A DNA stretch of 34,164 nt, from assembly GCA_903918315.1 (NCBI GenBank), contig CAIXEA010000221.1, positions 1 through 34,164 of the forward strand, in the 5' to 3' direction. Shown here piece by piece: positions 41 to 27,851 of the stretch. The position numbers and the translations under genes were made by a program. Position 1 is the first letter of the stretch; each line of letters begins with the position of its first letter. The notes under the pieces were generated by a model. That model was not told the origin of the DNA, made no database searches, and was given only the letters and a program-made list of their open reading frames with translations. The stretch comes from an uncultured Acetobacteraceae bacterium. GTDB taxonomy: Bacteria > Pseudomonadota > Alphaproteobacteria > Acetobacterales > Acetobacteraceae.

Positions 41-134
41 GGTCGGCTCCCTGAAACCGACCTCCTATGAGTCAGACAACAGAGCGCGCCGGAATCCCCA
101 AAAATGGCATATCAGGGATTCCGTCCACACGGCC
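1..134 (-). mobile_element. Left-edge fragment of an IS5-like insertion sequence
   Basis: The first 40 bases encode, on the minus strand, the start of a transposase, so the window opens inside an insertion sequence whose 5' end points into the window. The outer end is placed at about 134 by inference: read on the minus strand, the DNA there begins GGCCGTGTGG, which resembles the termini of IS5-group elements, and it is preceded by TTA (a possible TNA target). An 8-bp inverted repeat (91-98 with 115-122) lies in this non-coding end. Beyond about 135 the sequence becomes autotransporter passenger repeat. The exact boundary is uncertain because the other IS end is outside the window. Confidence 0.6.
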
Positions 135-3100
135 TAATGCGTCCGCGGTCAGTGTCGCGGGCCAGCTGACCAGCCTTATCAATACTGCATTGATACAAAG
201 CAACGGGTCCGGCGGAACCGGCGTTTCCGTGACCGGCAGCCTGGCCAGCATGAGCAATTCCGGCCAAATTCAGGCCGCGAGCGCCGATGGCGTCGGCCTG
301 TCCGTGGCGGGGAACACCGGCACGCTGAGCAATATCGCGGGTGGCCTGGTCAGTGGCGGCGCCTTCGGCCTTGCGGTTGGCGGCACGGTCGCGGCGCTGT
401 CCAATAATGGCGCCGTGACGGGCAATACAGGCCTGTTCGTCGCCAGCACCGGCAGCGTCGACACGATCGGCAACGGCCTGGGCGGCACCATCGCCCATAC
501 CGGCAGCGTCGCCGGCAATGGCCTGTGGATTCAAGGCACCGTGAATGCCGTCAACAACAGCGGCGGCGTGATCCGTACCGATAGCGCGGGCTTGGCCGGC
601 ATCCTGGTCGACACCCAAAATCTTGGTGCGATCAACAACAGCGGCACGATTCTGTCCAGCAACGGGCCCGCGATTGCTTATGCCGCCGGAGCCTCGGTGA
701 CCGGCGTCATCAGCAATACCGGCACCAACGGTCTGATTCAAGGCGGTCCGGCGGATGGGAGCGGGATCGCGATCGATACGTCGCTCGCGACGGCCGCGCA
801 GACCATCAGCACCAGCGGTTCCATCGTCGGCGCCATCCTGCAAGGGCACGGCGCCGACGTCTTGAACGTGCAGGGCGGTGGCATCAAGGGCAATATCGTC
901 GGGCAGGACGGGGCCAATGGAACGGTCAATTTCGCCACGGGCAGCGGCAACACTTTCACCACCGCCGGCAATATCGGTGGCGTCGACTTCGTCAACGTTC
1001 TGTCCGGCACCCTGGCCGTCGCGGCCGGGAACAGCATCACCGCCACGAACGCCAACGCTGTCGGCGTCAATATGCTTGGCGCCGGATCGGGTCTGTCGAA
1101 TAGCGGGCTGATCACAGCGGGCGAAATCGGCGTGTCGATCGTGGGCGGACCCGGTGCTTTCGCGATCGATCAGGTCGTCAACAATGCCGCGGGCACGATC
1201 AGTTCGGGGTCCGTCGGGATAGCGATCGGCGACCCGTTCGGCGGGCCGACGGCGGCTTATGTCAATACCGTCAGCAACAGCGGCCAGGTGCTGGGCCCCG
1301 ACGCGGGCGTCTACATCAATGGTCAGGCCGGGACCATCACCAACCAGGCGGGCGGGCTGATCCTGTCCAACGGCGGCGGCGCGCAAGGCCTGGTGATGCA
1401 GGCCGGCACGGTGTCACTCATTCAGAACGCCGGCATGATCAGCGGCACCAACGGTTCGTTCGGCGGCGCGTTCGGTGTTGGTATTGCCAGCGGCACGGTC
1501 GACAGGCTCGTCAATACCGGCACGATTTACGGCGATTCCTTCGGCGTTGGCGCTGCGTTCGGCGGCACGATCGGCACGGTGGACAACAGTGGCCTGATCA
1601 ACAGCCTTCAGAACGGCGTCTCGTTGTACAGCGACGGAACGATCACGGCGTTGCTGAATCGCCAGGGTGGCGTCATTTCCGGCAATTTCGACGGGGCGGA
1701 AATCGACGGCAATCTGACCTTGCTGTCCAATGCCGGGACGATCACGGGTGACACCGGTGTTCTCGTCAACACAACCCAGTTTGGCACGCTGACCAACAGC
1801 GGCGCCATCACGGGTAACAACACCGGGATTTTTTATACCCCTGGGGCATCGATCAGCGGCGGCATCACCAATACCGCGACCGGCCTGATTCAGGGCGGGC
1901 CGAGCGACGGGTCCGGCATAGCCATCGACGCCGGCCTCGCGACGGCGGCGCAGACGATCAACACCGCCGGGACCATCATCGGCGCGATCATGCAGGGGCA
2001 AGGGACCGATCTGCTGCATGTCACCGGCGGCAGCATCACCGGCAGCATCGTCGGGCAGACCGGCTTTGGCGGCTCGGTCAACTTCGATCTCGGAACCAAT
2101 GGGACCTTCGCCACTGGTGGCAATATCGGCGGGGTTGATAACCTCAGCCTGACGTCAGGGGCGCTGACGATCTCGTCGGGTAATACGGTCGCGATATCGA
2201 CGGCCGATTCGTCCGGCATCGTGTTGTTCGGCCACAATCTGACCCTGACCAACAAAGGGGTGATCGCTTCGACCACCGACGCGGGTTCGTCGGTCTTCGT
2301 CGGGCCGATGGCTGACGGGGTGGCGCTTTATAACACGCAAGGTGCCGTGATCAGCGCGGCTGGCAGCGTGTCCAGTGCCATCCGCGTGTTCGGCAATGCG
2401 ACGACGATCGACAATGCCGGCACCATTGCGTCCACGGGTAAAGACTCGGCAACGGGCATCGATGTGTTCGGCGTGGTCGGCACGATCACCAACCAGTCCA
2501 CCGGCCTGATCCAGGCGAGCAATGCCGGAACGCTCGCCACCGCGATCGAAATCCAGCTCGGCGCCACGGTCGCGGCGATCGCCAATGCCGGCCAGATTCT
2601 GGCGCCGCTCAACACCAATGGCTTTGGCATCAATGTCGACGGCGCGGTGGGTGCGATCACCAACCGCAGTGGCGGAACGATTTCGGCCGGCTACAACGCC
2701 ATCAATGTGTCCGCCACCGGTTCGGTCACCTCCATCACCAATTCAGGCCTGATTTCGGGCGCCACGAGCGGTGGCGACGGGATTGAGATTGCCGGAATCG
2801 CCGGGACCATCACCAATAATGCGGGCGGCGTCATCGCGGCGGATGTCCAGTTTGGCGATGGCATCTATATCGACGGGGGGGCGACGGTCGGCGCCATCGC
2901 GAACAGCGGCTCGATCTCATCCAACGCCGCCGGGGCGGGTGCCGCCATCTATGTCGGTGGCGTTCTGACGTCGCTCACCAACAATGCCGGCGGGGTCATC
3001 AAGTCGACCAACGCGGCCATCGAGATCGACACCACCAGCCTGGGCACGATCGGCAACTATGGCACGATCTCATCCAGTGGCGCGGCTGCGATATTGTATG

Positions 3101-6100
3101 ATTCCAAGGCGTCCGTTTCCGGCAGCATCAACAACTATGCCACCAGCGGTCTGATCCAGGGCGGCACCGTCGGCGGCACGATCATCGCGATCGATGCCAG
3201 GCTTGCGACCGGCCCGCAGACGATCAACACCGCCGGGCGGATCGTGGGCGACGTGCTGCAGGGCACCGGCGCCGATACCTTGAACGTGCTGGGCGGCACC
3301 ATCACCGGCGATATCATTGGCCAGGCCAATGCGGGCGGCACGGTCAACTTCAACCTCGGCAACGGCAACACCTTCGCGACCGCCGGCAATATTTCCCAGG
3401 TCGATCTGAATGAGGTGACGTCCGGCACGCTGCTGGTTTCGGCGGGCAACACCATCACCGCCTCCACCCCGAACAATGCGGGGCTGCACCTCGCGGGCAA
3501 TGGCACCGGCCTGATTAACAACGGGACCATCCAATCGGTCGCGCAATTTGGTGTGGTGACGGATGCCGGCGTGACGGCCGGTTCGATCGTCAACAATGCC
3601 AGCGGCGTCATCAGCGGCGGTGCCGGCATCTTCGCCAATGCCATCACGTCGATCAGCAATTCCGGTCTGATCACGGGCGCGGCCCAGGGCATCTACGCGG
3701 CGGGCGCGGTTGGCACGATCACCAACAATGCCGGTGGCACGATCCAAGGCGTCGTCGCGAATGCACAGGCCATTTCCGTCAGCGGCGGCACGGTCACGAC
3801 GGTCATCAACAACGGGCTGATCGCCGCAACCGCCGCCGGCGGGGCCGGGATCCTGGAGAACAGCACCGGCAATGCCGGCGCCAGCATCGGTTTGATCAAC
3901 AACACCGGCACGATCAATGGCGGCGGCCAGGGCGTGATCGCCTATCGTGGCCTGATCGGCACGATCACCAACAGCGGGCTCATCCAATCCGTCTCGGGCG
4001 TCGGTATTCAGACGAATGCGATCGGCAGCATCACGACGGTTTCGAACAGCGGCGTCATCCGGGGCTTGAGCGCCGGCATCCGGTCGGATGGCTCCATCGG
4101 ATCGATCACCAATCTCACGGGCGGGTCGATCCTGGCCACGGGCCCGAGTGGTTCGGGCATCCTGATCAACGGCAGCGTTGGGACCATCACCAATCAGGCG
4201 GGGGCACTCATTGATCCGCCGCCGGCGCCGGGTCAGGCCTCGTACGGGATCAACGTCGCCAGCGGCGGCAGCCTTGGGCAAGTCGGCAACGCCGGCAGCA
4301 TCGTCGGCAGCGCGGACGGGATCCTGGTCGCCGGTTCGGCCGGAACCATCACCAATACCGGGCCTGGCGGCGTGATCACGGCGACCGGGACCAATGGCGC
4401 GGGGATCGCGACCGCTGGCGGCAGCATCACGACCATCACCAATAGCGGGCTGATTTCGGACACCAATACCGGCGGCGATGGCATCATCGTGAATGTCGGC
4501 TCGATCGGCCTGATCAGCAACACCGGCACGATCCTGGGCACTGACGCGGGCGTCTATGCCTCGGTCGGGTCCATTGGGACGGTGTCGAACAGCGGCTCGA
4601 TCGGCTCATCGGCTAATAACGGCGTCCGCGTCGGCAGCACGGGGACCATCGCCTCGTTGATCAACAACGCCGGCGGCACCATTTCCGGTGCCGTGGCTGG
4701 GGTCAGCGTCGCGGGCATCGTGGGGGCCGCGTCCAACAGCGGGTTGATCTCCGCGCCAACGGGAACCGGGCTGTTCGTGACCGGCGCCATCGGCAATGGC
4801 ACCACCACGGGCTTCACCAACACCGGCACGATCCAGGGCGGGCCGTCTAATGGCTCGGGCACCGCGATCAACGATCAGGGTGCCAGCGGGGCGGAGCGGA
4901 TCGACACGTCGGGCGTGATCATCGGCGCGGTGCTGCAGAGCGGGAAAGCCGATCTGCTGCATGTGACCGGCGGCAGCATCACGGGCAATGTGGTGGGGCA
5001 GAGCGGTGCCGGCGGCACGGTCAATTTCGATCTCGGCGCGGGTAACACCTTCACGACCGCGGGCAATATCGCGCAGGTCGATACCGTGACCGTGACCACC
5101 GGCACGCTGGCGGTGGCGTCGGGCAACACGATCACCGCGTCGAGCGCGAATGCGGTCGGTGTGACCCTGGCCGGGGCGGGCACGGGCCTGACCAACAGCG
5201 GCACCATCAACGGCGGGACCGGCGCCGGCGTGAATGTGACGGGCAGCGTCGTCTCCTTCGTCACCAACACCGCGACCGGGGTCATCAAAGGCAGCACCCA
5301 GGGCATTGCTGTCCTTAACAATCTGGCGGCGATCAACAATCTCGGCCAGATTTCCGGGGGCGGGCAGGGCGTCTATGTGGGCGCCAATGGCGTGGCCGGC
5401 TCGGTCACCAACAGCGGGACGATTTCGGGCACGGGCACCGGCGGCGACGGCATCCAGGTCGCGGGCGGCAGGATCACCGGAACCATCGCCAACAGCGGCC
5501 TGATCCAGGGCTCGGGCACTGGCACCGATGCCGGCATCCTGCTGTCGGGCGGATCGATTGCCGTGATCAACAACAGCGGCACGGTCACCGGCGCCGCCAA
5601 CGGTGTCTGGGACAATGCCGGCTCGATCACGAGCCTGTTCAACACGGGTTTGATCCAGGCCACGGGGTCCGCCGGGGCGGGCGTGAACATCGGGTCCGGG
5701 GCCACGATTGGCACGGTCACCAACAATGGGCCGGCGAATAACGGCTCTTTGGGCGTGGGCACCATTCAGGCCACTGGCCAGAACGGGGTTGGCCTGCTGG
5801 TCGCGGGCACCACGGGCGCGCTGAACAACTACGGCCTGATCCAGGAAACCGCGACGGGCGGCACCGCGATCTCGGTCACCAGCACGCTGTCGTCGATCAC
5901 CAACTTCAACGGCGCGGTCATTCAGGCGACGGGAACCAACGGGGTCGGCATCAGCGGGTCGGTCGGAACGATCACCAACAATGCCGGCGGCGCCATCCTG
6001 GCGACCGGCACCAATGGTGTCGCGATCAAGACCGGCAATGAGGTGCTGATCAGCAACGCCGGGATCATCAACGGCAGCGGCGCCAATGGTGTCGGCATCT

Positions 6101-9100
6101 ATGCGCAATCCGGCACCGTCGGCACCATTTCCAATGCCGCCGGTGGCACGATCACGGGTGCGGCGAACGGCATTGCCTCGCAGTTCGGTCAGGTCGGGAC
6201 GGTCAGCAACAACGGCCTGATCTCGGCTGGTGTTGCCGCGATCTCCAACCAGGCCACGCTTGGCTTCGGGCTGATCAGCAACGCCGCCACCATCTCCGGC
6301 GGGATCGTCAATTCCTCGGTCGGTGGCAATATCGCAACGATTGGGACGATCAGCAACGCCGGTCTGCTCACGGCCGCCGGCAATGCGATCTACACCAACG
6401 GCACGATCACGACCGTTGCCAATACCGGCACGATCACCTCCGCCGCCGGCGACGCGACGGTGTTGGTCACCGCGACCAGCAATACGCCGAGCGGCAGTGG
6501 CTTCATCGGCACGCTGACCAATACCGGCGGGCTCATCCAGGATACCGGGATTGGGTCTGCTATCTCCGGCTCCATTGGCACGATCACCAACGACGCGACC
6601 GGGGTCATCCGCGCGAGCATTGGCGCCGGTATCCAAACCGGCAACAATACCCTGGTCAGCAACAGCGGCCTGATCAGTTCGACCTCAGGCGCTGGTATCG
6701 CCGCGGCGTCGGGCACAACGGTGACCGCGATCACCAATCTGGCCAGCGGCACGATCACCGGTGGTGGGAGCGGTGTGCAGTCGGGCTTTGGGCATATCGG
6801 GACGCTGACCAATAGTGGCCTGATCTCCGGCGGAACCTACGGGGTGCTCAATTACGCCAATAATGGCATCGGGACGCTGGTCAACAATGCCGGTGCGACC
6901 ATCACGGGCGTCCAGTTTGCCATTCAGAACGGCGTGGCCGACAGCGCCATCATCCCGACCATGGGCTCGATCGCCAATGCCGGCACGCTGTCCTCCGCCG
7001 GGGAGGCTATTTATACCAACGGCACGATCACCACGCTGTCCAACACGGGTCTGATCACCGGCGCGACCGGTGTGGATGTGGCGAACGCCAACGGCGTTGG
7101 CCTCATCGGCACGCTCAGCAACACCACCGGCACGATCAAGGCGACGGGCAGCGCGGGCCACGCCATCAATGTGAGCGGCTTGATCACGCTGTTGTCCAAT
7201 GGCGGGACCATCCTGGCCACCAACGCCGGGAACGGGATCAATATCAGCGGTGGCTCGATCGGAGCGATCAACAACACGGGTCTGATCACCCAGGCCGGCG
7301 CCGCTGGCTCGGGCATCTCCAACAGCAATGGCACCATCGGCGTCCTGACCAATGGCGGCACCATCTCGGGCGCCAGCGCGGGTGTGACGAACGCCGGCGG
7401 TACCATCACCACGCTGACCAACAATGGTACGGTGACGAGTATTGGCACCGGCGTGGATTCGTCTGCCGGCGGCGCGATCGGGACCCTGAGCAATACCGGT
7501 CTGGTGAGCGGGACGGCGGCCGGTGTGGCGCAATCCGCGGGCACGATCGCCAGCCTGTCCAACAGCGGTACCATCCAGGGGGCCGTCGGTATTCGGGCGA
7601 CGTCGGGCGGGGTGATCACCACGCTGACGAACAGCAACCTGATCCAATCCACCGGGTCCGGTTCGGCGATTACTTCGGACTCGAAAAGCGTCATCAACAC
7701 CATCGCCAACAACAAGGGCGGGCTGATCCTTTCGCCGAGCGGCACGGCGATCCAGGTCGCCCCCGCGATCGCGACCGCGATCACCAATGCCGCGGGCGCG
7801 ACGGTCCAGGGCGGGGCGGCGAATGGCTCCGGCACAGCGATCGACGGCAGTGGCGGCGCGGGGGCGATGACGCTGACCAACACCGGCACGATCATCGGCG
7901 GGGTTAAGCAGGGCCATGGCGCGGATACGTTCAACCTGTCGGGCGGGGTGTTCACGGGCAATGTGACCGGCCAATCCAACGCGGGCGGCACGGTCAATCT
8001 GGCCCTGGCCTCGGCGACTTTGGGCGGGACTGACACTTTCACCAATGTTGACAACGTGAACCTGACCTCGGGTCTGCTGACCCTGACGTCGGCGGGCAAT
8101 GTCATCACCGGTGCCAAGGCATTCAACATCAGCAACGGGGCCACCACGGCGCTCGACAGCACCTCCATCGTGGGGGCGGTGACGACGACCAACAGCGGCA
8201 TCGTCAGCGTGGGCACCAACACGGCGACGTTGAAAGGCAGCTATGTGCAGACCAGCACCGGCTCGCTGAACATCACCGTGGCCGGCAATCTCGTGAACGG
8301 CACCAACGTCAATACCTGGGGTGGGCTCAACCTCACCAACAACGGCACGGCCGCGGTCAATGGCGGGACGGTGGCGCTCCACTTCACCGGCCTGACGACC
8401 TTCACGCCGCCGATGACGATCATCACGAGCACGGTGGGGGCGAGTGCGGCGAACGGCGTCACGATCACCGACGACAGCCCGAACCCGTTCTACAACATGC
8501 CGAGCCTGGTGGTGTCCGGCACCAACCTGAACATTGCCTTCGCCACCCCGACACCGTCACAGGTTCTGCCCTATGCCTATACGTTCCTGGGTGGAACGCC
8601 GACCGCGCTGACGCCGTATTCGATCTCGGCGAAGGATGCGTATGCGGCGCGACTGGCGAGCCTCAATCTGCCGACATTCGGCAAGATGATCACGATGCTG
8701 TCGCAGTCGACGCCAGCGCAGATCGACTCGTATGAGAAGCAGGCCGCGCCCTGGACGATCGCCAATGCCTTGTCGGTGTTCGGCAATGGGATGATCGCCA
8801 ATGATGGTCTGACAACCTCGGTTGAGGGGCGTTTGATCGCGGCCCGGGCGACGGCCGGGATGGCGGCGGGTGATGAGGCGGGTCGTGGCTTCACCGCCTG
8901 GGCGCAGCCGTTCGGTGCGTCGATCCAGCAGGGCGCCAAGGACGGGTTCGGTGGGTTCAATGCCGCCAGCTACGGCGCGGCACTCGGCGCGGATACCATG
9001 GTGCGCCCGGATCTGCGCCTCGGCGTCGGGTTCAGCATCGCCAATACCGATATCCGCTACAGCGGCGCGACGTCCGGCAACACCGACAACGTGCTGAACA

Positions 9101-9711
9101 TCCAGCTCGGCGCCTATGGCACCTGGTTCAGCGACGGGTTCTTCGTCGATGGCAACATCGCCGGCGGCTACAACAGCTTCACGTCCAAGCAGAACATCAC
9201 CGGCCTGGGGCAGCAGTCGGCCAATCATTCGGGTGAGCAGTTCACCATGAAGATCGGCGCCGGCTATGAAGCCAGGATCGAGGGTGCGGTCATCACGCCC
9301 AGCATCTCCTTCCAGGAGATGCACATGAACTTCGGCAGCTATGCCATGGCCGGCGGCAGCGGCCCGACGGCCAATATCAACAGCCAGAGCGTCGATCTGC
9401 AGCAGGGCAAGATTGGGGTCCGCCTCGCTTACCCGATCCAGGGCGATGAGGGCTGGAAGTTCACGCCGGAGGTTCATCTGAACTACGTGCATAACTTCAA
9501 CACCACCGGCGTCACCACCACCGGCACCTTCGCCGGGGGCCTTCCCTTCAACGTCTTCGCCCCGGCGCGGGACGCGGAAGTGGTCAATGTCGGCGCTGGC
9601 CTGACCATTGCCCAGGACGGCCCCTTCGCATTGAGCGGTGTGTATGACTACTCGGGCGGCGAAACCGCCCACATCCACAGCTTCTTCCTGCGGGTGAAGT
9701 CCGACTTCTGA
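67..9711 (+). CDS. Giant autotransporter (type Va-like), 5' end probably replaced by IS DNA
   Basis: A 3214-residue open frame. Residues ~24-2870 are a Gly/Asn/Ser/Thr-rich passenger built of short units of the type GTIxxxxNxGxIxG, expected to form a parallel beta-helix on the cell surface. A PL1-like passenger segment lies at about 2720-2830, a helical linker at about 2880-2938, and a C-terminal autotransporter beta-barrel at ~2939-3214 that ends in Phe, as the BAM machinery requires. The barrel is intact. There is no Sec signal peptide or extended signal region: the frame enters passenger repeat at about residue 24, and residues 1-22 lie in the probable IS end. The ATG at 67 has no Shine-Dalgarno; the bases before it are CCTCCT. 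The gene is therefore probably a 5'-truncated remnant whose real start was lost. It was probably an adhesin or biofilm protein, which is inference from the family. Confidence 0.85.
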   Translation: MSQTTERAGIPKNGISGIPSTRPNASAVSVAGQLTSLINTALIQSNGSGGTGVSVTGSLASMSNSGQIQAASADGVGLSVAGNTGTLSNIAGGLVSGGAFGLAVGGTVAALSNNGAVTGNTGLFVASTGSVDTIGNGLGGTIAHTGSVAGNGLWIQGTVNAVNNSGGVIRTDSAGLAGILVDTQNLGAINNSGTILSSNGPAIAYAAGASVTGVISNTGTNGLIQGGPADGSGIAIDTSLATAAQTISTSGSIVGAILQGHGADVLNVQGGGIKGNIVGQDGANGTVNFATGSGNTFTTAGNIGGVDFVNVLSGTLAVAAGNSITATNANAVGVNMLGAGSGLSNSGLITAGEIGVSIVGGPGAFAIDQVVNNAAGTISSGSVGIAIGDPFGGPTAAYVNTVSNSGQVLGPDAGVYINGQAGTITNQAGGLILSNGGGAQGLVMQAGTVSLIQNAGMISGTNGSFGGAFGVGIASGTVDRLVNTGTIYGDSFGVGAAFGGTIGTVDNSGLINSLQNGVSLYSDGTITALLNRQGGVISGNFDGAEIDGNLTLLSNAGTITGDTGVLVNTTQFGTLTNSGAITGNNTGIFYTPGASISGGITNTATGLIQGGPSDGSGIAIDAGLATAAQTINTAGTIIGAIMQGQGTDLLHVTGGSITGSIVGQTGFGGSVNFDLGTNGTFATGGNIGGVDNLSLTSGALTISSGNTVAISTADSSGIVLFGHNLTLTNKGVIASTTDAGSSVFVGPMADGVALYNTQGAVISAAGSVSSAIRVFGNATTIDNAGTIASTGKDSATGIDVFGVVGTITNQSTGLIQASNAGTLATAIEIQLGATVAAIANAGQILAPLNTNGFGINVDGAVGAITNRSGGTISAGYNAINVSATGSVTSITNSGLISGATSGGDGIEIAGIAGTITNNAGGVIAADVQFGDGIYIDGGATVGAIANSGSISSNAAGAGAAIYVGGVLTSLTNNAGGVIKSTNAAIEIDTTSLGTIGNYGTISSSGAAAILYDSKASVSGSINNYATSGLIQGGTVGGTIIAIDARLATGPQTINTAGRIVGDVLQGTGADTLNVLGGTITGDIIGQANAGGTVNFNLGNGNTFATAGNISQVDLNEVTSGTLLVSAGNTITASTPNNAGLHLAGNGTGLINNGTIQSVAQFGVVTDAGVTAGSIVNNASGVISGGAGIFANAITSISNSGLITGAAQGIYAAGAVGTITNNAGGTIQGVVANAQAISVSGGTVTTVINNGLIAATAAGGAGILENSTGNAGASIGLINNTGTINGGGQGVIAYRGLIGTITNSGLIQSVSGVGIQTNAIGSITTVSNSGVIRGLSAGIRSDGSIGSITNLTGGSILATGPSGSGILINGSVGTITNQAGALIDPPPAPGQASYGINVASGGSLGQVGNAGSIVGSADGILVAGSAGTITNTGPGGVITATGTNGAGIATAGGSITTITNSGLISDTNTGGDGIIVNVGSIGLISNTGTILGTDAGVYASVGSIGTVSNSGSIGSSANNGVRVGSTGTIASLINNAGGTISGAVAGVSVAGIVGAASNSGLISAPTGTGLFVTGAIGNGTTTGFTNTGTIQGGPSNGSGTAINDQGASGAERIDTSGVIIGAVLQSGKADLLHVTGGSITGNVVGQSGAGGTVNFDLGAGNTFTTAGNIAQVDTVTVTTGTLAVASGNTITASSANAVGVTLAGAGTGLTNSGTINGGTGAGVNVTGSVVSFVTNTATGVIKGSTQGIAVLNNLAAINNLGQISGGGQGVYVGANGVAGSVTNSGTISGTGTGGDGIQVAGGRITGTIANSGLIQGSGTGTDAGILLSGGSIAVINNSGTVTGAANGVWDNAGSITSLFNTGLIQATGSAGAGVNIGSGATIGTVTNNGPANNGSLGVGTIQATGQNGVGLLVAGTTGALNNYGLIQETATGGTAISVTSTLSSITNFNGAVIQATGTNGVGISGSVGTITNNAGGAILATGTNGVAIKTGNEVLISNAGIINGSGANGVGIYAQSGTVGTISNAAGGTITGAANGIASQFGQVGTVSNNGLISAGVAAISNQATLGFGLISNAATISGGIVNSSVGGNIATIGTISNAGLLTAAGNAIYTNGTITTVANTGTITSAAGDATVLVTATSNTPSGSGFIGTLTNTGGLIQDTGIGSAISGSIGTITNDATGVIRASIGAGIQTGNNTLVSNSGLISSTSGAGIAAASGTTVTAITNLASGTITGGGSGVQSGFGHIGTLTNSGLISGGTYGVLNYANNGIGTLVNNAGATITGVQFAIQNGVADSAIIPTMGSIANAGTLSSAGEAIYTNGTITTLSNTGLITGATGVDVANANGVGLIGTLSNTTGTIKATGSAGHAINVSGLITLLSNGGTILATNAGNGINISGGSIGAINNTGLITQAGAAGSGISNSNGTIGVLTNGGTISGASAGVTNAGGTITTLTNNGTVTSIGTGVDSSAGGAIGTLSNTGLVSGTAAGVAQSAGTIASLSNSGTIQGAVGIRATSGGVITTLTNSNLIQSTGSGSAITSDSKSVINTIANNKGGLILSPSGTAIQVAPAIATAITNAAGATVQGGAANGSGTAIDGSGGAGAMTLTNTGTIIGGVKQGHGADTFNLSGGVFTGNVTGQSNAGGTVNLALASATLGGTDTFTNVDNVNLTSGLLTLTSAGNVITGAKAFNISNGATTALDSTSIVGAVTTTNSGIVSVGTNTATLKGSYVQTSTGSLNITVAGNLVNGTNVNTWGGLNLTNNGTAAVNGGTVALHFTGLTTFTPPMTIITSTVGASAANGVTITDDSPNPFYNMPSLVVSGTNLNIAFATPTPSQVLPYAYTFLGGTPTALTPYSISAKDAYAARLASLNLPTFGKMITMLSQSTPAQIDSYEKQAAPWTIANALSVFGNGMIANDGLTTSVEGRLIAARATAGMAAGDEAGRGFTAWAQPFGASIQQGAKDGFGGFNAASYGAALGADTMVRPDLRLGVGFSIANTDIRYSGATSGNTDNVLNIQLGAYGTWFSDGFFVDGNIAGGYNSFTSKQNITGLGQQSANHSGEQFTMKIGAGYEARIEGAVITPSISFQEMHMNFGSYAMAGGSGPTANINSQSVDLQQGKIGVRLAYPIQGDEGWKFTPEVHLNYVHNFNTTGVTTTGTFAGGLPFNVFAPARDAEVVNVGAGLTIAQDGPFALSGVYDYSGGETAHIHSFFLRVKSDF
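730..8118 (+). repeat. Five equal-length 107-aa modules inside the autotransporter passenger
   Basis: A 321-nt module occurs five times: 730-1050, 1882-2202, 3148-3468, 4825-5145 and 7798-8118. Each begins with an xxIQGG/xxVQGG motif, carries GADxLxVxGG and a GNIVGQ-type core about 45 and 60 residues in, and ends near AGNxITA. All five have the same length, checked by a shared codon position 291 nt into each copy. The intervals are 831, 945, 1356 and 2652 nt, all multiples of three and filled with shorter beta-helix units. This suggests a folded cap or punctuation unit recurring along the helix, or segmental duplication. Confidence 0.8.
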
Positions 9712-12608: not shown

Positions 12609-13475
12609 GTGTCGATCTCTGCCCCCCCGAACCGTCGGTTTGATGTCTATGGTCACCGCGGTGCGCGGGGTCTGTTTCCGGAAAACACCGTGGAGGGTTT
12701 CAAGGCCAGCCTCGCCCTTGGGGTGAAGGCGTTTGAACTCGACGTGAACCTGACGGCTGACGGCGTGCCGGTGCTGGCCCATGATTTGGCGCTGAATCCC
12801 GCGATGACCCGTGACCCCGCCGGCCACTGGCTGACGACAGCGGGACCGCTGATTTCCTCCATGACCTTTGCCGCCCTGGAATCGTTCGATGTCGGCCGGA
12901 TCCGGCCAGGATCAAGGTTGGCCGCGCTCTTTCCGGACCAGGCGCCCGAGGATGGGGCGCGCATTCCGGCGCTGACGACCGTTCTGTCCCTCGGCGGGAT
13001 CGAGCAGTTTATTATCGAGTTGAAGGGAGATCCGCGTTACCCGGACCATACGGTGCCCGCCGCTGTGCTGGCCGATGCGGTGTGGGCCGCGGTTGCTGCC
13101 TGTGGTGTCGGAGCCCGCGTGGTGTTCGAATCATTCGATTGGCGCGGCCCGCGGCATCTGCGCCGCCTGCATCCGGAGGTCCGGCTGGCCTGGTTGACCC
13201 GGGCGGAGACCGTGCGGGACGCCCGACTGTGGTGGGGTGGACCGCATCCGGACGACTTTGGCGGTTCCGTGCCGCGCGCCGTCGCGGCGGAGGGCGGCAC
13301 GATCTGGGCGCCGGATTACACCGATCTGACGTCGGACCTGGTCGCGGAGGCGCAGTCCCTGGGTCTGTCGGTCCTGCCATGGACGGTCAATGACCCCGCG
13401 GCGATGCGACGCCTCCAGCGATGGGGCGTCGATGGCCTGATCACCGATCGGCCGGACCTCGCACCTTCGGGCTGA
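12609..13475 (+). CDS. ugpQ: Glycerophosphodiester phosphodiesterase family protein
   Basis: 288 aa TIM-barrel enzyme of the GDPD family, hydrolysing glycerophosphodiesters to glycerol-3-phosphate and an alcohol. Visible signatures are HRGARG with His16, the metal-binding ELD (Glu43 and Asp45), His58, the IELKGD strand and the C-terminal VDGLITDRP. There is no signal peptide, so it should act in the cytoplasm like UgpQ. The chosen start is GTG at 12609, since the HRG motif follows within 16 residues and no better ATG lies upstream in frame; the ribosome site is weak. No ugp transport genes are near, so the symbol is by similarity only. Confidence 0.87.
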   Translation: MSISAPPNRRFDVYGHRGARGLFPENTVEGFKASLALGVKAFELDVNLTADGVPVLAHDLALNPAMTRDPAGHWLTTAGPLISSMTFAALESFDVGRIRPGSRLAALFPDQAPEDGARIPALTTVLSLGGIEQFIIELKGDPRYPDHTVPAAVLADAVWAAVAACGVGARVVFESFDWRGPRHLRRLHPEVRLAWLTRAETVRDARLWWGGPHPDDFGGSVPRAVAAEGGTIWAPDYTDLTSDLVAEAQSLGLSVLPWTVNDPAAMRRLQRWGVDGLITDRPDLAPSG

Positions 13476-26360: not shown

Positions 26361-27125
26361 ATGCGCAGTGACATCGAATTAAAGGTCTTCTGGCAGCCTG
26401 GTTGAACGAGTTGTTTGAAACTCAAGGAGTTTCTCTCGGTCCGTGCGATCGAGTTCGATTCGGTCAACATCCTGGAAGACGCTGAAGGCCTGCCTGAGCT
26501 CCGCCGGCTCGGCGCCCGCTCCATCCCCGTGCTGTCGCGCGGCGATGAATGGACGTTCGCGCAGAATATCGGCCATGTCGTCAAGTTCCTCGGCCTGAAT
26601 GAGGCGACCGGTCCCGCTTTGTCAGCCCCGCAGCTGATCGCGCGGCTCGACCTGTTCCTGGACGCGGCCATCCGCAATGTGAAGCTGATGCCGGATGATC
26701 GTCTGGAAACCGAGGTTCCGAACCGTCCTCGCAGCTACCGTGTGCTCAGCCACCATATCTTCCGCATTGCCGAGGTCTTCGTCGATGTCGCGGAAGGGGC
26801 GGATCTGACCTACGAGATGCTGGCGGTGACGCCGCCGGACGATATGGCCACCAGCGCGGCCATCTCCGCCTATGGTGAGGACGTTCTCACCCGGCTGCGG
26901 GCCTTCTGGGCGGCCAAGGCGGACAAATCCGGCAAGGAGACAGTGCAGACCTATTACGGTCCGCAGCTGCTGCATGAATATCTCGAGCGCTCGACCTGGC
27001 ACTCCGGTCAGCATGTGCGGCAGTGGTTCATGCTGCTGGGTATGAACGGCGTTACCCCGGATCGTCCGCTCGGTGATGAGGCTTTCGCAAAGCTGCCGAT
27101 GCCGAGCAGCGTCTGGGACGGTTAA
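26361..27125 (+). CDS. Predicted selenoprotein: glutaredoxin-like/DinB fusion, TGA at codon 15 read as Sec
   Basis: Read from ATG 26361, the frame gives MRSDIELKVFWQPG, then TGA (26403-26405), then TSCLKLKEFL and stays open to the stop at 27125 (254 residues). The part after the TGA is a complete thioredoxin-fold half (GARSIPVLSRGDEW with cis-Pro, up to about residue 80), followed by a DinB-like four-helix domain with candidate metal ligands His131/His132, His214 and His218 (WHSGQHVRQW). In Cys-containing relatives the motif is WQPGCxSC; the TGA replaces exactly the first Cys, giving U-x-x-C. A SECIS-like hairpin follows directly. Without recoding, the gene would only restart at TTG 26415, losing the active site. 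The ribosome site before ATG 26361 is weak; the gene follows nrdA by 77 bp. Alternatives are a nonsense mutation or sequencing error. The coding frame is certain; the Sec reading is inference. Confidence 0.72.
26403..26438 (+). promoter_or_regulatory. SECIS-like stem-loop immediately after the in-frame TGA
   Basis: After TGA and one A, CGAG (26407-26410) pairs with CTCG (26435-26438). Inside lies a perfect 7-bp stem GAAACTC (26417-26423) with GAGTTTC (26427-26433) around loop AAG, separated from the lower stem by TTGTTT on one side and a single T on the other. The apical loop is 18 nt from the TGA, inside the range reported for bacterial SECIS elements. The loop is small and lacks a G in its first two positions, which is a weak point. 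Confidence 0.5.
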
Positions 27126-27177: not shown

Positions 27178-27681
27178 TCACCCAATCGCGACGGAAATCT
27201 TCGGCGGGTTCTTGATGGTCTGCAGCACCACGCAATAGCGTTCGGTGGTCTGAATCATCCGCTCCAGCTTGGCCGCATCCGCGTCGCAATCGACATCGAA
27301 GCGCAGCGTCACTTCCGTCAGGCCCACCGGGGCGTTGCGGTCGATGGCCAGCGTGCCGCGCGCATCCCAGATGCCCTCCGCGATCACCTTGCCGCCGCGG
27401 ATGGTCACGCCCATCGCGGTCGCGACCGCGCGCAGGGTGACGCCGGCGCAGCCGACAACCGCCTCCAGCAGCATATCGGCCGAGCAGGCGAGTTCGCCGC
27501 TGCCGCCACCGGCCTTGTGCAGGCCCGCGGTGACCTTGCTGTGCCAGCTATCGACCACGATGGCGATGTCGTTGGGGTCGAGGCTGCCCTCGGCCCGGGC
27601 TGGGATCAGCGCGGCCTCCGGCTGATCGCGGTACAGTTGCTTCAATGGCGCCTGAATGGCGCGCAGGTCCTCGGCTTTCAT
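27178..27681 (-). CDS. OsmC/Ohr family protein
   Basis: 167 aa from ATG 27681, preceded by GAGGAG; the frame open to 27837 lacks a ribosome site. It has the OsmC layout, with one Cys in EAVVGCAGVTLRAVA at the start of the long helix and a second in TERYCVVLQTIKNPP, the pair that reduces organic peroxides in OsmC/Ohr proteins. The first is in the GCA context rather than the typical Ohr CF motif, so it is OsmC-like rather than Ohr. It is convergent with the Grx-DinB gene and divergent from the CoA-transferase; a role in peroxide defence is inferred. Confidence 0.87.
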   Translation of the reverse strand: MKAEDLRAIQAPLKQLYRDQPEAALIPARAEGSLDPNDIAIVVDSWHSKVTAGLHKAGGGSGELACSADMLLEAVVGCAGVTLRAVATAMGVTIRGGKVIAEGIWDARGTLAIDRNAPVGLTEVTLRFDVDCDADAAKLERMIQTTERYCVVLQTIKNPPKISVAIG

Positions 27682-27750
27682 TTTGGTCTCCTCGTGATGC
27701 GGTCGATTGCGGTTGGCAGAGGTATAGAAGTTCTCTCCGCTCGGCCAGAG

Positions 27751-27776
27751 TGGCGCTTCGAGTGTGGCGCTTCGAG
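27751..27776. repeat. Short tandem repeat in the OsmC / CoA-transferase intergenic region
   Basis: TGGCGCTTCGAG occurs twice (27751-27762 and 27765-27776), period 14, in the divergent promoter region. It could be a direct-repeat operator or chance. Confidence 0.35.
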
Positions 27777-27851
27777 AGCGGTGCGTCCCGGGCGGCTCTT
27801 GCCATGAACCGGTATGGATGGGATCAACTGTCCGCAAAATCGAGGATCGTC

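Follow-up and report, generated by a model that had tools for sequence, protein, structure and literature searches.

Glutaredoxins (Grx) that carry selenocysteine (Sec) are already known. A Sec-containing glutaredoxin (PF00462, UxxC) is listed as experimentally verified in Table 1 of PMC13188914, which in 2026 catalogued 119 families and subfamilies of prokaryotic selenoproteins, and a Sec-containing Grx from the Sargasso Sea was reported in PMC1088965. Another group, the UXX-star glutaredoxin-like (seleno)proteins, is represented by the models NF041212, NF041211 and NF047338. The DinB/S-transferase-like enzymes carry out the metal-dependent transfer of low-molecular-weight thiols and have a three-histidine metal site (PMC5815605, PMC10950700), which in BstA of B. 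subtilis is made up of H67, H160 and H164 (PMC5815605); Gram-negative bacteria mostly use glutathione (PMC4360819). As for alphaproteobacterial selenoproteins, FdhA was reported to be the only one present in those Alpha- and Betaproteobacteria that decode Sec and had been examined by then (PMC1794560), and the alphaproteobacterium Afipia carboxidovorans is reported to have three known selenoprotein genes (PMC12013277).

In this study, we analysed a locus in which a glutaredoxin-like and a DinB domain are joined. It lies in a stretch of 34,164 nucleotides from an uncultured Acetobacteraceae bacterium, referred to here as the window, and it is very probably a selenoprotein gene with UGA decoded as Sec and a Grx-DinB product. 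The predicted protein resembles the known Sec-glutaredoxins in its Grx fold, in Sec being first in UxxC and in the stem-loop after the UGA. It differs from them in having a DinB domain, whereas their entries, compared by their listing, carry no mention of one, and in having its own conserved SECIS sequence. The UXX-star proteins are likewise Grx-like and Sec-containing, but the present protein is not a member, as it scored below the cut-offs of NF041212 (26.0 bits, cut-off 66), NF041211 (19.7 bits, cut-off 100) and NF047338 (23.6 bits, cut-off 97). With the DinB/YfiT superfamily (BstA, mycothiol S-transferase and mycothiol-dependent maleylpyruvate isomerase) it has in common the four-helix bundle and a three-histidine pattern ending in HxxxH; however, only in the present protein is a Sec-bearing Grx domain fused to this bundle, and its thiol-transferase role is a predicted one. 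Glutathione S-transferases also have a thioredoxin-fold N-terminal domain followed by an all-helical C-terminal domain, and they surface weakly in the fold search, but the two superpose poorly over the whole chain, with a TM (by query length) of about 0.24-0.35 and an rmsd of about 10-17, and their helical domain is GST-C while that of the present protein is DinB. Sec formate dehydrogenase (FdhA) depends on the same Sel machinery but is an unrelated protein.

The sequence-only reading of this locus had stated that no Grx-like/DinB selenoprotein was known, and none came to light in the literature and catalogue searches made. Searches of open-licence papers, judged by title and opening lines of the abstract, brought up no such fusion; no family in Table 1 of PMC13188914 is described as a glutaredoxin with DinB, and the word "DinB" is absent from the available text of that paper and of the deep-Sep paper, PMC12013277. 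No model of NCBIfam release 20.0 matched the protein above its cut-off, and the 12 families that matched at an E value of 1 include none of the catalogue's hypothetical-protein models NF045500, NF041374, NF049953, NF049942 and NF041197. Within these searches, the results support the notion of a new selenoprotein architecture served by a known decoding mechanism.

Results

The gene occupies positions 26361..27125 on the plus strand and would encode 254 residues with Sec15. Between the ATG at 26361 and the TAA at 27125, the sole in-frame stop is the TGA at 26403..26405 (+), the codon for residue 15, which would be read as the Sec that comes first in UxxC within the redox motif FWQPG-U-TSC. From this TGA to the final stop there are 240 codons, TGA counted. 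Hence the reading frame itself confirmed what had been proposed at the outset, namely a single TGA in an otherwise open 254-codon frame that stays clean afterwards.

A glutaredoxin-like domain covers residues 8-58 (26382..26534, +; PF00462, 32.5 bits, cut-off 22.9), and a DinB/S-transferase-like four-helix domain covers residues 107-221 (26679..27023, +; PF12867 or DinB_2, 24.8 bits, which is exactly its cut-off). In alignment A2, made up of 43 proteins chosen from 84, PF00462 matched all 43 members and PF12867 matched 32 of them (both at an E value of 0.001). Invariant in the 43 proteins, besides further positions, were W11, residue 15 (Sec or Cys), S17, C18, K22 and E23 on the Grx side, and R122, R124, H132, Y198, G200, R210, H214, Q217, H218 and R220 on the DinB side. 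The second cysteine of the motif (C18), which had been said to be preserved, is therefore kept throughout, and H132 together with H214-xxx-H218 corresponds to the three-histidine site of the DinB superfamily ending in HxxxH. The AlphaFold2 model had a mean pLDDT of 95.4 and a pTM of 0.90. With Foldseek, the DinB domain matched 6iz2 at a TM of 0.81-0.83 (by target length) and also 2p1a, 1rxq, the mycothiol S-transferase 8f5v and the maleylpyruvate isomerase 2nsf, and the Grx domain matched 7c10 and 3zit. The fold thus favours the DinB assignment, for which the Pfam score is borderline. A sequence search of the PDB (E value of 0.1) returned 8 sequences; two of these were weak, and the rest were glutaredoxins and NrdH that matched the N-terminal part.

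Relatives of the gene were sought in other genomes. A pattern scan of genome contigs, a method that reaches near kin only, gave 41 loci, which were pooled with those of a family search of 397 genomes (the best loci, up to 30, being taken) before exact duplicates were removed. From the loci listed, 65 distinct ones reach the codon in question, 22 with TGA, 28 with TGC and 15 with TGT; L024 and L074 end short of the codon and were excluded from the counts. A class search of 385 genomes, from which the best loci (up to 20) were taken, added 19 loci among the matches listed (17 TGA and 2 TGC), giving at least 39 distinct TGA loci and at least 45 loci with Cys (TGC or TGT) at the same codon. A further TGA locus (genome G448) and a further Cys locus (genome G699), read beyond these totals, agree with this pattern. 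The presence of Cys in 45 homologues substantiates the earlier statement that the TGA sits at the first Cys position of the redox motif. Of the 398 genomes in a phylum sample, 20 gave a match: the window's own genome and G461 over the full length, and 18 weakly over the N-terminal glutaredoxin part.

All 39 TGA frames run for 238-243 codons to the stop, TGA counted, and none showed another early stop or a frameshift. Random decay had been thought unlikely from the window itself; the recurrence of the same TGA codon in 39 distinct loci, always followed by a clean frame, argues for that view, and it answers the proposed check of close relatives for frameshifts and other stops. The sequence before the TGA is also kept, being FWQPG or a near variant in every one of the 39 rows. 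The residue preceding Sec is His (FWQPH-U-TSC) in L116, L119, L121 and L126, and Ala in L118.

A family tree was made by a quick method from an alignment in which the site and the next 18 residues had been masked, and it left 28 of its 81 inner branches open. It placed 31 Sec rows together, with 8 Sec and 20 Cys alphaproteobacterial rows around them in unresolved order, and the Sec/Cys label needs only 3 changes on it. This is compatible with one gain of Sec in the alphaproteobacteria and later returns to Cys, and Sec may be the older state in this class. The loop shared among the TGA rows argues for a single origin, and separate gains of Sec are possible. Nine family labels of the class (f1, f12, f53, f66, f67, f80, f93, f95 and f113) include genomes with the TGA form; judged by this spread, the Sec form is not a recent local Cys-to-Sec change. 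This refines the earlier suggestion that a new selenoprotein had arisen by replacement of Cys with Sec.

The strongest evidence, which was absent from the sequence-only reading, is a conserved SECIS-like stem-loop with covariation at 26435..26453 (+). It consists of a 7-bp stem (CUCGGUC/GAUCGAG) closed by the apical loop CGUGC (26442-26446), 36 nt from the UGA. RNAalifold, run on the 39 TGA rows, predicted a single helix, and this was the pairing of 26435-26441 with 26447-26453. The loop bases CGUG were invariant in all 39 rows; all 7 stem pairs formed in 32 rows and 6 of the 7 in the other 7 (97.4% of 273 cells paired), pair 39-57 being unpaired in 6 rows and pair 40-56 in 1. By comparison, all 45 Cys rows had at most 5 of the 7 pairs, and none had the full stem. 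Double-sided changes were found in 10 cells (a number reached in none of 500 shuffles) and in 3 of the 7 pairs (reached in 11 of 500 shuffles). The covariation score on the 39 rows was 0.241; no shuffle out of 500 reached it, and six slid controls gave at most 0.062. When only the 22 nearer rows were used, the covariation was weak, with 41 of 500 shuffles equalling the observed values, and so the signal depends on the wider 39-row set. The double changes are located in L070, L114, L121, L122 and the L124/L125/L128 group, that is, by reading of the alignment, in about five separate lineages.

The coding sequence over this region shows a matching constraint. Among the 22 TGA genes, synonymous differences (same-residue pairs) amounted to 0.19 over codons +1 to +17, against 0.46 for the remaining codons, and the lowest of the non-overlapping windows had 0.37; in 43 Cys genes the corresponding values were 0.44 and 0.46. 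At codons +14 (GCG/GAG/GGG) and +16 (GAG/GGG/GTG) of the 22 rows, the second base varies while the third is constant, which is the opposite of ordinary coding constraint and is what would be expected for bases of a stem.

According to the bSECIS model of PMC13188914 (Fig. 2 legend), the apical loop has 3-9 nt and the upper stem 4-16 bp; a G occupies one of the first two loop positions and is mostly followed by G or U; and the UGA is 16-37 nt from the apical loop, with a minimum free energy of -7.5 kcal/mol or lower (PMC13188914). The window's stem-loop fits the loop and stem sizes (5 nt and 7 bp), and its loop C-G-U-G has the G within the first two positions, then U. The spacing of 36 nt (columns 10-45 of alignment A1) is within the range, close to the upper limit, and the 19-nt hairpin folds at -7.6 kcal/mol. 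The same 19-nt fold reaches -7.5 kcal/mol in 14 of the 22 A1 rows, the weakest having -5.7 kcal/mol. Single-sequence folding of 63 nt gave a structure that is not unusually stable (z -0.75) and is uninformative as evidence, and an Rfam scan of the window produced no match at the gathering thresholds. When the stem-loop model (R1) was applied to the window's genome, with 150 of 2505 first-look candidates scored, it recovered its own locus plus one weak match (18.8 bits, E value of 0.33); the latter, by eye an ordinary glutaredoxin gene, was not taken as a SECIS.

Another hairpin, GAAACUC-AAG-GAGUUUC at 26417..26433 (+), lies between the UGA and the main stem-loop. It folds in 21 of the 22 A1 rows, L075 being the exception; over the 39 rows 82.4% of its cells are paired, with no compensatory change. 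Because L075 and many of the distant rows lack it, it was rejected as a general SECIS and appears to be a lineage-specific accessory, shared within the wider lineage of the window. A further point against a SECIS role is its loop, which reads AAG in the window and lacks a G at either of the first two positions. A basal stem is plausible from the alignment, in which the UGA-proximal strand 26403..26407 (+) would pair with 26453..26457 (+): 93.8% of its cells are paired, and C-G is changed to G-C in 3 related rows. Base 26453 is common to this stem and the main one, and the two pairings would therefore compete there.

The genome from which the window comes holds selA, selB, selC and selD, the machinery whose presence had been named as a check. 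SelA scored 556.7 bits (cut-off 267.9). The tRNA-Sec gene (70.5 bits, gathering threshold 47; tRNA-SeC(tca) by ARAGORN) adjoins selA on contig C97. SelD (297.1 bits, cut-off 125) forms the C-terminal portion of an oxidoreductase fusion of 741 residues, and the same protein has 475.9 bits against the fusion_not_SelD model, below its cut-off of 700. Two selB genes were found (405.7 and 399.2 bits, cut-off 242.25). Among 14 well-known control genomes, the cut-off was passed by selA in 1, selB in 2, selD in 2 and tRNA-Sec in 5; the tRNA-Sec match alone is thus not specific, and it weighs mainly through its anticodon and its place next to selA. The two SelB genes (L092:8388-10310, minus strand, and L093:9875-11899, plus strand) are 42% identical and are not on the selA/selC contig; each may act on its own type of SECIS, or one of them may be contamination.

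Across genomes, the TGA form goes together with selA. The family search matched 36 of the 397 genomes, 14 of them with TGA and 19 stop-free only (3 weak partial matches were omitted). SelA, above its cut-off in 98 of the 397 genomes, was present in 13 of the 14 TGA genomes and in 1 of the 19 stop-free ones (Fisher p 3e-7, with genomes treated as independent). The class search matched 36 of the 385 genomes, namely the window's own, 18 more with TGA and 13 stop-free only (4 weak partial matches were omitted), and selA was found in 17 of the 18 and 3 of the 13 (p 6e-5, with genomes again treated as independent). Pooled, these are 30 of 32 TGA genomes against 4 of 32 stop-free-only genomes. For 31 of the 32 TGA genomes, all but G094, the codon itself was read as TGA, and Cys was read there in 18 (16 + 2) of the 32 stop-free genomes, the other 14 being assigned by the absence of a stop. 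As the Sec/Cys label needs only the 3 changes on the tree, few independent events underlie the link with selA, which the Fisher tests therefore overstate. SelA was not detected in the TGA genomes G358 (920 contigs) and G407 (77% complete), probably due to incompleteness. In L129 (G448) and L130 (G488), about 10 kb or less separates selA from the selenoprotein gene.

Formate dehydrogenase was considered as a second selenoprotein of the window's genome and rejected, since none of its 7 PF00384 matches contains a TGA. In six TGA genomes, 1 of 38 PF00384 matches has an internal TGA (G014:C84:5443-6894, 96.2 bits); this molybdopterin-oxidoreductase match is possibly a second selenoprotein or a pseudogene.

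The genes next to the locus differ between lineages. A hydantoinase/oxoprolinase A-like gene (named by eye) was matched in 7 of the 39 TGA loci: in L013, L017, L018, L019, L021 and L023 it ends 24-27 nt upstream of the start, and in L067 a partial match lies further upstream. An isochorismatase-like gene (named by eye) is upstream in 11 of the 45 Cys loci (L076-L081, L083, L085, L090, L040 and L050), which suggests that it forms a small catabolic cluster with the Cys-form genes; flank lengths differ among the loci in both comparisons. Bug-type binding proteins (named by eye) are near the gene in some loci. Such neighbours would fit a catabolic or detoxifying setting, yet they vary, and this is only a lead. 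Beside the gene in the window is an OsmC-like protein (27181-27837, minus strand; 38.9 bits against the OsmC-related (seleno)protein model, cut-off 95), and OsmC-like proteins are also near the gene in L013, L019 and L064. Elsewhere in the window there are a 3214-codon open frame at 67-9711 (+) with no Pfam match at an E value of 1e-5, and a tRNA-Ser (GCT) gene at 13062-13145 (+).

Discussion

The occurrence of Cys at the TGA position in homologues, the sel genes in the genome and the conserved stem-loop together support the original selenoprotein reading. Most likely, the genome's own SelA, SelB, SelD and tRNA-Sec decode the UGA at 26403-26405 as selenocysteine, and this decoding would be directed by the bacterial SECIS stem-loop situated inside the coding region, 36 nt past the UGA. 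The product would have 254 residues, with an N-terminal glutaredoxin-like domain (U-T-S-C) and a C-terminal DinB four-helix domain carrying a predicted three-histidine metal site.

What this protein does can be proposed more tentatively, from its families. The DinB domain might be a metal-dependent thiol transferase or isomerase whose substrate is an electrophile and whose thiol is probably glutathione. The Sec-glutaredoxin domain tethered to it might reduce or de-glutathionylate the product, or supply a nucleophilic selenol, an arrangement comparable to that of glutathione transferases, in which a thioredoxin-fold domain is linked with a helical one; that a DinB transferase/isomerase is coupled to the Sec-glutaredoxin domain in this specific way is possible, and we hold it with limited confidence. 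Glutaredoxin domains reduce glutathione mixed disulphides. In view of this activity, the thiol transfer by DinB enzymes and the use of glutathione in Gram-negative bacteria, the likeliest role, still a provisional one, may be that of a glutathione- or selenol-dependent transferase, isomerase or reductase of small electrophiles. A bolder idea, which we think rather unlikely, is that the Sec-glutaredoxin is a built-in selenol cofactor of the DinB metal site, making the protein a self-contained selenol transferase/isomerase, and that this protein, and not formate dehydrogenase, maintains the Sec machinery in many alphaproteobacteria.

Other explanations have to be weighed against this one. The protein might be a selenoprotein in which the glutaredoxin half simply donates electrons in the manner of NrdH, perhaps to a ribonucleotide reductase (RNR) encoded just upstream, and the DinB half is incidental. 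Its best NCBIfam score is indeed with an NrdH-like model, and in the window the reading frame that ends 77 bp before this gene codes for an alpha subunit of ribonucleoside-diphosphate reductase (NF006577; 1015.7 bits against a cut-off of 620). However, that NrdH-like score is 31.9 bits, far beneath the cut-off of 85.75, and the DinB histidines are invariant in the 43 aligned proteins. Moreover, RNR is the neighbour in only 2 of the 65 loci searched, L001 and its near twin L063 (many loci hold at most about 1.5 kb upstream). The NrdH/RNR partnership was rejected on this count, short flanks included, and the donor explanation as a whole seems distinctly unlikely.

Low-level readthrough of UGA is common, and a downstream RNA structure can promote it. 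A near-cognate or suppressor tRNA (for Trp, Cys or Arg) might accordingly be imagined to read the codon in place of tRNA-Sec. Four observations make this very improbable: the 45 homologues have Cys, not Trp or Arg, at the codon; the TGA forms track selA; the downstream structure fits the bSECIS model; and the final stop of the gene is itself TGA in L016, L019, L067 and L070, showing that UGA is not reassigned in general. Slightly less probable still is a start downstream of the TGA, which would leave the 5' part untranslated and yield a short DinB protein without the redox residue. A 236-aa open reading frame from the TTG at 26415 is present in the window, and automatic annotation might choose it, but the conservation of FWQPG or a near variant before the TGA in all 39 rows speaks against such a start, as do the homologues with Cys, which code through the residues before this position. 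Finally, the TGA might mark a pseudogene or a sequencing/assembly error: genes in decay often show a lone in-frame stop close to their 5' end, and the source is a draft assembly of 241 contigs. This is extremely improbable, as the TGA is conserved, with no other early stop or frameshift seen, in 39 distinct loci. One of these belongs to the assembly of Acidisphaera sp. S103 (NZ_LMUJ01000051), a named strain, so that one assembly's base-calling error is not the cause. The invariant key residues of both domains in 43 proteins also contradict this explanation, as does a synonymous-site constraint near the TGA that the Cys genes lack.

On the preferred reading, a selenoprotein unrelated to formate dehydrogenase, with a very recognisable SECIS, would be present under nine alphaproteobacterial family labels, and its redox motif would bring a selenol to a protein that unites two folds of thiol chemistry, the glutaredoxin and the S-transferase-like one. 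Genes of this kind are easily misannotated as truncated DinB proteins without the active site. Genome G699 carries the TGA and Cys forms of the fusion on different contigs (L132 and L133), a natural Sec/Cys pair, and with both versions in one genome the advantage of selenium is directly testable.
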